DNA from: Desulfotignum sp.
GTDB taxonomy: Bacteria; Desulfobacterota; Desulfobacteria; Desulfobacterales; Desulfobacteraceae
Assembly: GCA_011390635.1 (NCBI GenBank)
Contig: JAABSA010000003.1
Span: 62,001-126,000, forward strand
DNA length: 64,000 nt
Reading direction: 5' to 3'
Shown here: one piece after another, positions 12,524-55,569 of the stretch
Layout of the letters: each line of letters opens with the position of its first letter
Numbering within the stretch: the stretch's first letter is position 1
Translations under genes and position numbers: made by a program
Notes under the pieces: model-generated
What the model saw: the letters and a program-made list of their open reading frames with translations, nothing else
What the model was told of the DNA's origin: nothing
Databases searched by the model: none

Positions 12524-12587
12524 TTCCCACCCTGGATATTTGTTATAGTAGCGTGCACGCTACTATAACAAATATCCAGTTCCCACC
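12524..12587. repeat. 48-bp perfect palindrome flanked by 8-bp direct repeats
   Basis: Bases 12532-12579 form a perfect inverted repeat with 24-bp arms and no spacer (arm begins CTGGATATTTGTTATAG; centre GCGTGCACGC). TTCCCACC lies immediately on both sides (12524-12531 and 12580-12587). An 8-bp direct repeat around abutted 24-bp ends looks like a target duplication around a mobile element whose interior is gone. The 343-base gap 12411-12753 that holds it separates the divergent patatin-like and PLP-lyase genes. A short hairpin (TACCCGC-agggg-GCGGGTA) follows at 12599-12617. Confidence 0.9.
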
Positions 12588-12753
12588 GGTCACACCGCTA
12601 CCCGCAGGGGGCGGGTATCAAGCAGCCGAACAGGATGTGGTAACATGCCATGGCCCCGGGATTGTGCCGGATTGTCTGGACTTATGGCTGCAAATTCTGT
12701 ATACAGCCCATTTAATTAAATAAAACATGATCAAAATATGGACAGGAGAAACC

Positions 12754-13935: not shown

Positions 13936-13990
13936 CGGACAGCCAGTGAACAAGTGATGGAACGTATCACGTCCCAGCTGTAAAACAGGA

Positions 13991-14067
13991 GCCCCCTGTG
14001 GTTGCTTCCTGCAGGACTGTCAGAGCCTCCAAGGATCTCAGGCCGGCAGGAAGCAACCACAGGGGGC
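13991..14067 (-). repeat. Conserved-loop hairpin element, copy A
   Basis: Perfect 22-bp arms at 13991-14012 and 14046-14067 (outer sequence GCCCCCTGTGG / CCACAGGGGGC) enclose a 33-base loop starting AGGACTGTCAGAG and ending ATCTCAGGCCG. The same loop recurs in copy B (26057-26133) and, reverse-complemented, in copies C and D. It lies in the 341-base gap 13936-14276 between the PLP lyase and the IclR gene, which also holds the iclR promoter. Orientation is called minus by comparison with C and D. Unlike the others, this copy has no large element beside it. Confidence 0.9.
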
Positions 14068-14166
14068 GGCCTTTCTGCAGCATTGGTTACGCCACACTCC
14101 CCGCTGCCCGGCACCGGAAAGGCCTCCGACAGTCTTTTGCGGGAAACCAGCGGCAACGGTTTATCC

Positions 14167-24540: not shown

Positions 24541-25734
24541 ATGTGGATTGAACGTCAGATCAAAGACCGGGTGAACCGCTGTGTACAGTCCCGACCGGCT
24601 ATCCTTGTAACCGGTGCCAGGCAGACGGGAAAAAGCACGCTGCTTCAGCACATGTTCCCTGACACCACCTATATCACCTTTGATCATCTGCAACAGGTGG
24701 AAGCAGCCAGGGAAGCACCGGAACAGTTTCTTTCCCGGTTTCTGGATCCGGTGATTCTCGATGAAATCCAGTATGTCCCTGAATTGTTCCGGGAGTTGAA
24801 AATTGTCATCGATAATCATCGAGAGCGTTACGGCTGGTGGATGATGACCGGCTCCCAGCAGTTCTCACTCATGGAACAGGTCAGCGAGAGTCTGGCCGGA
24901 AGAATCGCCCTGCTCCGCCTTGAAACCCTGAGCGCCATGGAACTGCGGCAGGCAAAGGTCCCTGATCCGGACCGGTTTCTTTTCCGGGGCGGATATCCGG
25001 AACTGTGGGCCAACAAACACCTGACCATGACCGATTTTTTTGAAAGTTACGTCCGCACCTATGTGGAACGGGACCTGAAAACCATTATAGATGTAAAAAA
25101 CCTGAGCGATTTCAGACGGTTTTTCAGGGTGGCTGCCACCCGGACCGGCCAGCTGCTCAATTACCGGGGTCTGGCTGCAGATGTCGGGGTTTCCGACGTC
25201 ACCATCAAAAAATGGATCCACGCCCTGGAGATCAGCGGCCTGATTTACCTGCTGCCGCCCTTTTACGCCAATATCGGCAAACGCCTGGTCAAATCCCCGA
25301 AACTGTATTTCGGTGATCACGGTCTGCTGTGTCACCTGCTGGGCATTGACAGTGACGCGCAATGGCATGACCACCCCCTTAAAGGCAGCCTCTGGGAAAA
25401 TCTGGTGATGATGGAACTGATCAAAACCATGGACCTTCATCCGGGCACAGACCTGTTTTTCTACAGGGACCAGAACGGAGTGGAGATCGATTTTCTCATT
25501 GAAAAAAATGACCGCCTGATTCTAATGGAAGCAAAAGCCGGGGAGCGGTTTGCCCCGGAAAAACTGCACTTCAGCCGGGTCACCCCCCTGCTGGGCAACC
25601 GGTACCAACAGGTTCACAACCTGCTGGCCCTGAACATGCCGGGAAAAGAGATATTGCCCCGAAAACAGTTTGTGTGTTTCAACCCGCTGCATACCAGCCC
25701 GGCCGCTGCGGCCGACAGTCCGTCATCTGCCTGA
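24541..25734 (+). CDS. AAA (AAA_14) ATPase with DUF4143 domain
   Basis: A 397-residue protein of the AAA_14/DUF4143 family. Walker A VTGARQTGKSTLL lies at residues 23-35, Walker B VILDEIQYVPELF follows, and MMTGSQQFSLM is sensor-like. The C-terminal DUF4143 part has YVRTYVERDL, a winged-helix-like region (LAADVGVSDVTIKKWIHALE) and a nuclease-like ending FYRDQNGVEIDFLIE...LMEAKAG that resembles PD-(D/E)xK folds. The cellular role is unknown; such genes are often accessory. It is isolated, with a strong inverted repeat in its leader and two repetitive hairpin elements downstream, consistent with an acquired locus. Confidence 0.88.
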   Translation: MWIERQIKDRVNRCVQSRPAILVTGARQTGKSTLLQHMFPDTTYITFDHLQQVEAAREAPEQFLSRFLDPVILDEIQYVPELFRELKIVIDNHRERYGWWMMTGSQQFSLMEQVSESLAGRIALLRLETLSAMELRQAKVPDPDRFLFRGGYPELWANKHLTMTDFFESYVRTYVERDLKTIIDVKNLSDFRRFFRVAATRTGQLLNYRGLAADVGVSDVTIKKWIHALEISGLIYLLPPFYANIGKRLVKSPKLYFGDHGLLCHLLGIDSDAQWHDHPLKGSLWENLVMMELIKTMDLHPGTDLFFYRDQNGVEIDFLIEKNDRLILMEAKAGERFAPEKLHFSRVTPLLGNRYQQVHNLLALNMPGKEILPRKQFVCFNPLHTSPAAAADSPSSA

Positions 25735-25826
25735 AAACATCCGCATGTATTTGGAATCCTTTCGTGGACCTGAAACAATTCGATGCAGGTGTTCTGTGGT
25801 CCGCTTGTACTCTTTGGGTTCGACCC

Positions 25827-26015
25827 GTGGGGGGCGGTGCTGGTTGCCCTTACCCGTCTGTCCCGGTTGACAGGGTGTAGGGCATGCTGCACTAAACGGC
25901 AAAAACTGCGGGCAGGTATGTCCTCAAACAGTTTGCCGTTCTTAACGCTCCGCATGCCCACACCCTGTAACAACCGTCCCAGAATGGGATTCGAGCAACC
26001 AGCACCACCCCCCAC
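25827..26015 (-). repeat. Large ~190-bp nested-hairpin element, copy B
   Basis: Outer arms 25827-25847 and 25995-26015 (21 bp, one mismatch; GTGGGGGGCGGTGC / complement) enclose a core shared almost base for base with copies C and D, here on the minus strand. The core makes its own long stem (ACAGGGTGTGGGCATGC / GCATGCCCTACACCCTGT) and an inner one (AACGGCAAA / TTTTTGCCGTT). It lies in the 424-base gene-free stretch 25735-26158, which otherwise holds only small hairpin B. Confidence 0.9.
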
Positions 26016-26056
26016 TAGCCGAGGAAATAAAGCTGACGGCCCATGGCAAGGCGGGA

Positions 26057-26133
26057 GCCCCCGGTGGTGCCTTCCTGCAGGACTGTCAGAGCCCCCAAGG
26101 ATCTCAGGCCGGCAGGAAGGCACCACCGGGGGC
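26057..26133 (-). repeat. Conserved-loop hairpin element, copy B
   Basis: Perfect 22-bp arms (26057-26078 / 26112-26133; outer GCCCCCGGTGGTGCC) enclose a 33-base loop identical to copy A except at one position. The arms differ from copy A at three places, each with the matching change on the other side. It lies 41 bases from large element B, in the same orientation. Confidence 0.9.
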
Positions 26134-26158
26134 GGCATACATGCCAAGCGGTTCAATG

Positions 26159-36552: not shown

Positions 36553-36590
36553 ATTTTTTGCAAACCATCCTGTTCAGCTGTTTTATACCC

Positions 36591-36664
36591 GCCCCCTTCG
36601 GGTGCCTTATGACCGGCCCGAGATTGGCATCTGACGGTCCTGTCATACGGCACCCGAAGGGGGC
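36591..36664 (+). repeat. Conserved-loop hairpin element, copy C
   Basis: 23-bp arms (36591-36613 / 36642-36664; outer GCCCCCTTCGGG) with one mismatch enclose a 28-base loop starting CGGCCCGAGAT and ending ATCTGACGGTCCT. TATACCC before and GTCAATATAT after the hairpin are also shared with copy D. It lies in the 474-base gene-free gap 36553-37026, 132 bases before large element C. Confidence 0.9.
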
Positions 36665-36796
36665 TATGTCAATATATGTGACGCTGCATCTACATGTGAG
36701 TACCCTGTATCCGGCCAGGGATCCCCGAAGCCCTGACAATTCGAATAGAGATCTCCCCGGAGGGCTCCGACTGTTCAATCAGATTGACAGCGTCCA

Positions 36797-36986
36797 GTGT
36801 CGGGCGGGTCTTGTGGGTCGAATCCCATTCTGACGCGGTTGTTACAGGGTGTTGGGCATGAGGAGTGTAAAGAACGGCAAACTGTTTGAGGACATACCTG
36901 CCCGCAGTTTTTGCCGTTTAGCGCAGCATGCCCTACACCCTGTCAACCGGGGAAGACGGGTGAGACACACAAGACCCGCCCCACAC
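36797..36986 (+). repeat. Large ~190-bp nested-hairpin element, copy C
   Basis: Outer arms 36797-36815 and 36968-36986 (19 bp, one mismatch; GTGTCGGGCGGGTCTTGTG) surround the shared core. The stretch GGGTCGAATCCC after the left arm resembles a tRNA T-arm. Same orientation as small hairpin C. The last 40 bases of this gap hold nothing I can identify. Confidence 0.9.
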
Positions 36987-37026
36987 GGGTCCCACACAGG
37001 ATGGCCGGATCTGCCGTGGAGGCGGA

Positions 37027-54865: not shown

Positions 54866-55013
54866 ACGCCTTGGTTTCCTTTCTTTATGTTGCAGGTCAC
54901 AGACAGACATGCAACATCAAACAGTCCGTACAACGATTATCTTCAACGACTCCCCCGACTCTTTGAGCAGTGCACTTGCATATAACCAATTCTTATTCGG
55001 TTGATTGATACCC

Positions 55014-55088
55014 GCCCCCTGTGGGTGCCTTGTGACCGGCCCGAGATGACCCATCTGACGGTCCTGTCACAAGGCACCCACAGGGGGC
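55014..55088 (+). repeat. Conserved-loop hairpin element, copy D
   Basis: Perfect 23-bp arms (55014-55036 / 55066-55088; outer GCCCCCTGTGGGTGCC) enclose a 29-base loop, CGGCCCGAGAT to ATCTGACGGTCCT. Flanks GATACCC and GTCAATATAT match copy C. The 241 bases between this and large element D contain no feature I can name. Confidence 0.92.
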
Positions 55089-55329
55089 TTGGTCAATATA
55101 TTGTTACATCGCTATGCGCTTGTCCCTCCAAAACCGATCAAACTTGCTCCATGAATCGGATATCTCCAACATTTTTATATCCCCTGTGTAAATAATCCCC
55201 TTTTGTAAAGAGGTGGGGCCCCTGCTGTGCAACTTAATTTCCAGTCCTGATTCATCCCTTTTCGCGCCGGGTGAATAGCCAAGCCCCTGGTTTGTGTCAC
55301 CCGATAATGATAATTCGGGGCAGGGTCCA

Positions 55330-55519
55330 GTGTCGGGCAGGTCTTGCGGGTCGAATCCCATTCTGCCGCGGTTGTTACAGGGTGTTGGGCATGCGGAGCG
55401 TTACGAACGGCAAACTGTTTGAGGACATACCTGCCCGCAGTTTTTGCCGTTTAGTGCAGCATGCCCTGCACCCTGTCAACCGGGACAGACGGGTGAGGCC
55501 TGCAAGACCTGCCCGACAC
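55330..55519 (+). repeat. Large ~190-bp nested-hairpin element, copy D
   Basis: Perfect 18-bp outer arms GTGTCGGGCAGGTCTTGC (55330-55347 / 55502-55519) enclose the conserved core with its stem ACAGGGTGTTGGGCATGC / GCATGCCCTGCACCCTGT. Same order and orientation relative to its small hairpin as at the C locus. It ends 50 bases before the meaB stop codon. Confidence 0.92.
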
Positions 55520-55569
55520 GGGTATCTCCCGGGTTTCTGTCCGGTTTGGCGCCAAATCGGCCAAAAAAT

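Follow-up and report, generated by a model that had tools for sequence, protein, structure and literature searches.

A small hairpin of one type (type II), the spacer beside it and a large hairpin probably form one gene-less mobile element, a passenger resembling REP dimers and MITEs, in Desulfotignum sp. and its genus. The composite is multi-copy, intergenic and genus-wide, its parts keep a fixed order and orientation, and it decays by deletion, leaving either large hairpins with remnants of the left module or left modules alone. The window, the whole stretch of DNA that was analysed, comprises 64,000 nucleotides (G000:C39:62001-126000) of genome G000, an assembly of 4.09 Mb in 98 contigs.

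Hairpins in the window and in their own genome

The hairpins described in the initial annotation of the window are all present, and they fold far beyond shuffled sequences, with z values of -9.4 to -11.5 for the large hairpins of loci B, C and D and of -6.2 to -9.5 for the small ones. The features of the four loci are listed here by position.

13955-14074, minus strand: locus A, left module, made up of a type II small hairpin and the start of the spacer, with no large hairpin; left-module profile E 4.2e-19
13988-14071: locus A, small hairpin
25822-26021, minus strand: locus B, large hairpin of about 200 nt, forming the right part of the composite; fold z -11.5, family of 117 hits in 13 genomes, covariation
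26022-26053, unstranded: locus B, spacer; left-module profile match 26162-26021, E 1.7e-30 (B is among the training copies)
26054-26137, plus strand (strand of model R1): locus B, small hairpin of type II, forming the left part of the composite; fold z -7.8/-6.7, R1 match (B is among the training copies)
26138-26150, unstranded: locus B, conserved outer (upstream) edge of the left part
26151-26154, minus strand: locus B, proposed target tetranucleotide GAAC at the left junction, at a distance of 14 nt from the hairpin foot; two other empty sites have a native AAC
36588-36665, minus strand: locus C, type I small hairpin, regarded as a neighbouring element in its own right
36755-36780, plus strand: locus C, probable type II right-edge remnant directly 5' of the large hairpin; weak profile match 36700-36779 (E 0.033) and sequence
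36792-36991, plus strand: locus C, large hairpin; fold and family match
55011-55089, minus strand: locus D, type I small hairpin, regarded as a neighbouring element in its own right
55215-55261, plus strand: locus D, possible type II right-edge remnant; profile E 0.58, not significant alone, and sequence
55325-55523, plus strand: locus D, large hairpin; fold and family match

At loci B, C and D the small hairpin lies 5' of the large one in the same relative orientation, in agreement with the initial annotation. Locus A, which had been suggested to be a solo end, matches the left-module profile with no large hairpin beside it, as a left half would. Locus B is likely a complete copy of the composite and A its left half, with C and D as decayed copies, each next to a type I element that is separate from them. 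The genome that holds the window has 8 large copies (9 rows, one being the other arm of a counted copy), 5 of which are preceded on the 5' side by a small hairpin of the same relative orientation, and at least 28 distinct small loci (46 rows, with both-strand hits merged by hand and 150 of 1808 first-look candidates scored).

Two types of small hairpin

When aligned, the small copies split into type II (loci A and B of the window) and type I (loci C and D). The edges of type II read (G)AAC-CTGTTYGGCAGGAG-stem on one side and stem-CTCCGCTGTACAAAT on the other. Those of type I continue on both sides into inverted ends of about 17 nt close to CAGGGYAATCGCATGTA, and type I thus resembles an ordinary MITE of about 170-175 nt; it is probably an element separate from type II and the large hairpin. 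All 23 type II pairs are concordant in order and orientation, compared with 6 of 8 type I pairs (one of the two exceptions lies at a contig edge). The strict rule of order and orientation therefore belongs to type II, and the pairs at C and D may be partly coincidence. As examples of concordance the three loci of the window stand for order, but C and D are not clean ones, since the small hairpin there is type I with ends of its own. Independent distribution and random orientation, named at the outset as the observations that would speak against a unit, are not seen for type II, with its 23 concordant pairs out of 23.

A perfect 48-bp palindrome (CTGGATATTTGTTATAGTAGCGTG and its complement) occupies positions 12532-12579 of the window, and a half copy of type I, consisting of one arm and its end, adjoins it at 12600-12652. 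Near copies of this palindrome lie 3' of large elements at L150 and L214, and a further copy, at L316 (G006), is apparently split by a hairpin of the small type. The 48-bp palindrome may be a target or a further palindromic family.

Distribution and pairing across the genus

Model R1, built from the four small copies of the window, matched 13 of 59 genomes at E 0.001, namely all 13 of the genus (G000-G012), and the small hairpin was absent at this threshold from all 46 genomes outside it. The large hairpin was matched in 15 of 36 genomes: the same 13 and, by its core only, G016 and G018. These last two represent two other genera of the same family, in which the large apex (CTGTTTGAGGAC...CCGCAG) sits within otherwise different long palindromes, in several copies each (L110-L118); the apex-bearing palindromes of G018 have ends near CCCTGTAC/GTACAGGG.

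Within the 13 genomes we count 117 large hits and at least 225 small ones, both-strand hits having been merged by hand and a single weak R1 hit of G004, the rows of G016 and G018 and one self-inverse hit excluded; nine G006 rows among the 117 are halves of interrupted copies, so the true number of large hairpins is somewhat lower. A small hairpin lies within 400 nt of 31 of the 117 large hits, where 0.5 such pairs are expected from uniform placement and 4.3 if copies are placed only in the 12% of the genome assumed to be intergenic. In 29 of these 31 close pairs the small hairpin is 5' of the large one and on the opposite model strand. The remaining 86 large hits lack a small hairpin at 400 nt or less, and many small hairpins, type II among them, are solitary. 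Clustering by flanks reduces the 117 large hits to 52 clusters; type II pairs fall into 12 of these (one containing two G000 loci), and type I pairs are concordant in 4 clusters and discordant in 2.

Usable flanks are available for 95 large copies; 2 of these overlap a predicted ORF, and another 2 reach one if 40 nt of tolerance is allowed. The 95 copies are randomly oriented relative to the neighbouring genes (++ 22, -- 22, -+ 21 and +- 15), which shows that gene direction does not account for the pairing; we therefore rejected it as the source of the concordance. Comparisons with plasmids, phages and viral contigs led nowhere.

The composite as a probable single insertion

Complete copies of the composite measure about 340-500 nt, and the right boundary may lie somewhere about 7-40 nt beyond the large hairpin. 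The spacers, initially annotated as unrelated in sequence, are in fact alike at both edges in well-kept copies, and some copies share the whole spacer. A profile of this left module (small hairpin plus spacer) was trained on 19 pairs and 4 unpaired copies and run at E <=0.05 over 500 nt of flank on either side of the large copies without a concordant partner, 20 of 88 being excluded for short flanks. Left-part remnants were detected on the 5' flank of 33 of the 68 copies scanned, always on the same strand (29 of 64 when the four that had served as training copies are left out), and on the 3' flank of none of the 68; no remnant was detected in the other 35. Solo ends thus exist, as large hairpins with left remnants and as left modules alone.

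Syntenic comparison at three loci (X, Y and B) revealed that the whole interval from small to large is present or absent. Locus X carries the pair in G008 and G010 and deletion derivatives in G011, G004 and G009, and is empty in G012 and G001; it is also empty in G000, G003, G005, G006 and G007, where the junction is too diverged to be read. Locus Y is filled in G008 and G011, has a partly deleted large hairpin in G009 and is empty in G012. A further locus, L141, offered no readable junction. Locus B has both parts in G000, G003, G005 and G006 and the large hairpin alone in G010, the small one having been lost; G012 and G004 have neither part beside the same racemase-side neighbour, the interval is lost in G002 beside a DUF4143 gene, G001, G008, G009 and G011 have a different neighbour and no element, and G007 gave no match. 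Two large copies of G010 are each 97.5% identical to a third copy at another locus, an identity that points to recent spread.

For type II the evidence favours the proposed mobile unit of two parts, with a structural end on either side; it supports neither loci C and D as clean examples of this unit nor genes as its cargo.

Genes beside and between the hairpins

A DUF4143/AAA_14 ATPase gene lies at 24541-25734 of the window; among the genomes compared, it occurs at this locus in G000, G002 and G006 only. The initial annotation had called it the only obvious accessory gene in the window, with locus B directly behind it. As an accessory gene of the unit we rejected it on account of its independent presence and absence: it is not adjacent to locus B in G003, G010, G004 and G012, and G002 has the gene without the element (in G005 the contig ends). 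The gene is a separate presence/absence gene and not part of the unit.

Whether pairs enclose genes had also been raised. Three long-gap concordant pairs, with gaps of 1.3-2.6 kb, do: a TacA-like antitoxin and GNAT gene pair lies between small and large hairpin across a 1.3-kb gap (L187, 820-1800), a BsuBI/PstI-type restriction-modification pair lies between them in G009 (L155, 421-2852), and the remaining pair encloses a Cys/Met PLP enzyme. Because uniform placement, when scaled, predicts about 0.8 concordant pairs at 0.4-3 kb, and because two discordant pairs were observed at these distances, we do not claim gene cargo and set it aside as unproven.

Structure, covariation and strand preference

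Both hairpins retain their pairing through changes on both arms. In the large alignment (58 rows of 93 distinct copies, of which row L126 is chimeric), 97.0% of cells are paired, two-sided changes occur in 37 of 61 pairs, and the covariation score is 0.286, compared with 0.107 after shuffling and at most 0.061 with slid partners. In the small alignment (50 rows of 70) the corresponding values are 95.2%, 15 of 20 pairs, and 0.397 against 0.129 and at most 0.110; related rows inflate the counts for both hairpins. The asymmetric internal loop and the apex are conserved, and some arms carry short inverted swaps. Such swaps are the expected footprint of template switching, a published way of keeping stems paired that is described in part of PMC8794818, and covariation alone is therefore no proof of RNA function.

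The two hairpins favour opposite strands. Among pairs predicted on both strands, G-T and A-C cells on the D strand number 53:17 in the large and 9:23 in the small hairpin, and fold energy is better on the D strand for 54 of the 58 large copies and on the opposite strand for 35 of the 50 small ones; the asymmetry of the small hairpin rests on type II (7:20; type I 2:3). The favoured strands thus face outwards, like an inverted pair of ends. The large and the small apex both contain CTGTYWGAG, followed by CAG about 13 nt on, a likeness that may reflect common descent or chance. The apex may also resemble Geobacter-type palindromes, a likeness that we do not use as evidence. Searches against Rfam returned no match in the window or in 8 loci.

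An IS110-family element in the large apex

In G006, four large copies (contigs C66, C51, C36 and C17) stop behind GGCAAACT or GGTAAACT; a further five (contigs C8, both ends of C55, C4 and C64) start at CTGTTTGAGG. One pair of tails recurs at all of these breaks, with 4 junctions on the left and 5 on the right (L099-L109), and both tails match one element in G008:C16 (L361:1103-2783), with 91 of 94 and 66 of 68 letters identical. The L361 element has inverted ATGAGAAGGCT near its ends and encodes a 348-aa protein of the DEDD_Tnp_IS110 plus Transposase_20 type; we call it IS1111-like on the basis of subterminal repeats of the IS1111 kind, as a passage of PMC11187229 describes them. The G008 copy is not located in a large hairpin. 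Judged from the junctions in G006, an IS110-family element has entered one exact spot of the apex repeatedly, at CT. We had considered plain assembly breaks as the origin of the half-length large hits in this genome and rejected them in favour of this insertion at a single apex site; 9 of the 22 G006 large hits are halves of copies so interrupted, and the contigs probably end at the apex because the element is multi-copy. Excerpts of the literature describe recombination of IS621 at a CT core in REPs (PMC11208160) and the residence of several IS110-family elements in REPs (PMC1525189).

A further large copy of G006 (G006:C54:155430-155632; L103, L201) is cut at the apex beside T-rich unrelated sequence, which is not the IS110-family element.

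Insertion site and proposed mechanism

At both clean empty sites (X and Y), filled and empty sequences diverge directly after AAC, which is native in 2 of 2, and no target duplication was seen at these two empty/filled pairs. At 13 of 35 left edges exactly 14 nt separate the end of AAC from the stem, and at 10 the motif is GAAC (the set counts orthologues, and the flank marks at least one of its rows, L235, as type I); GGAC or GCAC occurs at 14-15 nt in some of the remaining left edges, and (G)AAC is missing at about half of the type II left edges. IS801, of the IS91 family, uses GAAC, GGAC, CAAG and CGAC, and GCAC also borders fragments of it, according to a portion of PMC3189936. Together, the (G)AAC-like left edge and the lack of a visible target duplication suggest an HUH mechanism, in which a transposase acting in trans would move the composite. 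Such an enzyme would recognise both hairpins as single-stranded DNA, the conserved apices and the internal loop being its putative recognition sites, and would insert the composite 3' of a GAAC-like tetranucleotide without target duplication. Pairing within the hairpins would be preserved by selection for mobility, by template switching between the arms, or by both.

Neither hairpin profile matched at 30 Y1 loci (PF01797; 47 hits in all, in 15 genomes) or at 23 IS91-type loci (PF04986), with flanks of up to 1.5 kb where the contigs allow. The short apex motif is present at 2 of the 30 Y1 loci, outside any such hairpin, and IS91-type genes were found in 6 of the 13 genomes and in none of G000, G003 and G006. 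A scan with end motifs for autonomous relatives gave no support and was weak, its controls recovering the left motif in 1 of 5 cases and the right motif in 5 of 5. With the loci tested devoid of hairpin profile matches, Y1/RAYT and IS91 genes are not supported as autonomous relatives in cis.

Tentatively, and as an idea that we think rather doubtful when taken whole, the composite could stand for a new class of non-autonomous single-strand (HUH-type) transposon. Its members would have unlike, oversized and outward-facing hairpin ends (about 80 and 200 nt), would insert after GAAC-like tetranucleotides and would depend on a transposase not yet linked to such ends; they would belong to a family-wide system, with related apices in G016 and G018, in which the apex serves as the landing site of an IS110-family, possibly RNA-guided, element.

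Alternative explanations

It is unlikely that two independent palindromic families merely favour the same intergenic sites and hence are frequent neighbours. Small hairpins are more numerous than large ones (at least 225 against 117), both families are intergenic, and type I has its own ends and a concordance, 6 of 8, that is compatible with chance; against this stand the 23 of 23 type II pairs with the same order and orientation, the conserved spacer, the remnants confined to the 5' side and the empty sites at which the whole interval is missing, and for type II this explanation already stands largely refuted. A succession of two insertions into a single site, in place of one composite insertion, might conceivably have produced the pairs. 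A cassette with two ends and genes between its hairpins, empty in most copies, is very improbable: the three concordant pairs at 1.3-2.6 kb (TacA/GNAT, Cys/Met PLP enzyme and BsuBI/PstI-type restriction-modification) would suit it, but about 0.8 such pairs are expected by chance, 2 discordant ones were seen, and the end of the restriction gene also lies beside a large hairpin in G008 and G011 with no small hairpin within 6 kb among the matches listed.

The covariation, which is strong, and the strand-specific wobble pairs, together with the conserved asymmetric internal loop and apex and the retention of several copies at one site across many species, could be expected of a pair of structured non-coding RNAs, or of a regulatory module at 3' ends (terminator or attenuator), retained for a host function. 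We regard this as quite improbable, given that orientation relative to genes is random, that copies appear and disappear at orthologous sites, that Rfam has no match in the window and the 8 loci, that the two parts favour opposite strands and that an insertion sequence interrupts the apex in G006; two RNAs acting together, as the initial annotation had also offered, are less economical than one mobile unit. It is also improbable that the hairpins belong to the REP/RAYT system in the strict sense and owe their movement to a Y1 RAYT. An inverted hairpin pair with a variable spacer and singletons as remnants recalls REP dimers (as portrayed in parts of PMC3733652 and PMC2817692), RAYT-sized Y1 genes are present in these genomes, and an IS110-family element targets the apex as others target REPs (on the evidence of a passage in PMC1525189); however, the Y1 loci tested lack flanking hairpins of either kind, no GTAG tag is evident on the large hairpin, and both hairpins are several times REP size. 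A single gene-less composite of type II hairpin, spacer and large hairpin remains our preferred reading.

Significance

The composite provides a bacterial case in which syntenic presence and absence shows two different hairpins forming one mobile unit, whose decay, to right parts with remnants or to solitary left parts, is readable across 13 species. If an HUH enzyme is responsible, the REP/BIME idea would extend to hairpins several times larger, and the conserved apex and internal loop would make end recognition testable. With their covarying arms, the hairpins offer a test case for selection on structure versus repair by template switching, and the IS110-family insertions in the apex an instance of one mobile element using another as its target.

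Comparison with known systems

No prior description of the composite was found in the open-licence literature, and literature on Desulfotignum repeats led nowhere; excerpts of PMC4046663 mention transposases and give no instance of "palindrom".

Bacterial MITEs share with the composite the character of small, non-autonomous intergenic elements, and type I, with its inverted ends of about 17 nt, fits among them. Unlike MITEs, type II plus large has no matching outer repeats (by eye) and no visible target duplication at two empty sites. As in IS91-family derivatives and one-ended fragments (IS801 of Pseudomonas, as covered in part of PMC3189936), the left edge of the composite lies at GAAC-like tetranucleotides, a hairpin lies near the left end and no target duplication is visible, but none of the 23 PF04986 loci carries the composite hairpins.

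The closest known structures are hybrid or hetero REP dimers, BIME-1 and REPINs, as presented in sections of PMC3733652 and PMC2817692 (see also PMC3116915). REP dimers, in the sections concerned of PMC3733652 and PMC2817692, are inverted and often hetero or hybrid, have spacers mostly of 20-100 bp and can leave singletons as remnants. Like REP dimers and BIME-1, the composite is gene-less, intergenic and multi-copy and consists of two imperfect palindromes, inverted about a short spacer (23 of 23 type II pairs, on opposite model strands). Like REPs, so far as those sections and a passage of PMC1525189 go, it retains its palindromy through complementary changes, leaves singletons as remnants and is hit by an IS110-family element. 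In examples, the inner edge of type II reads CGGAG before the stem and that of the large hairpin CTAG, where REP tags are GTAG, CGTC or GGAG. The composite differs in several respects: the hairpins of the composite measure about 80 and 200 nt and not 20-40, its two partners belong to different families, no RAYT was found flanked by them (0 of 30 PF01797 loci), and it occurs in tens of copies or fewer. Because of the size of its hairpins and the missing RAYT we do not file the composite as a REP member; it is an oversized new variant, closest to hybrid REP dimers and BIME-1.
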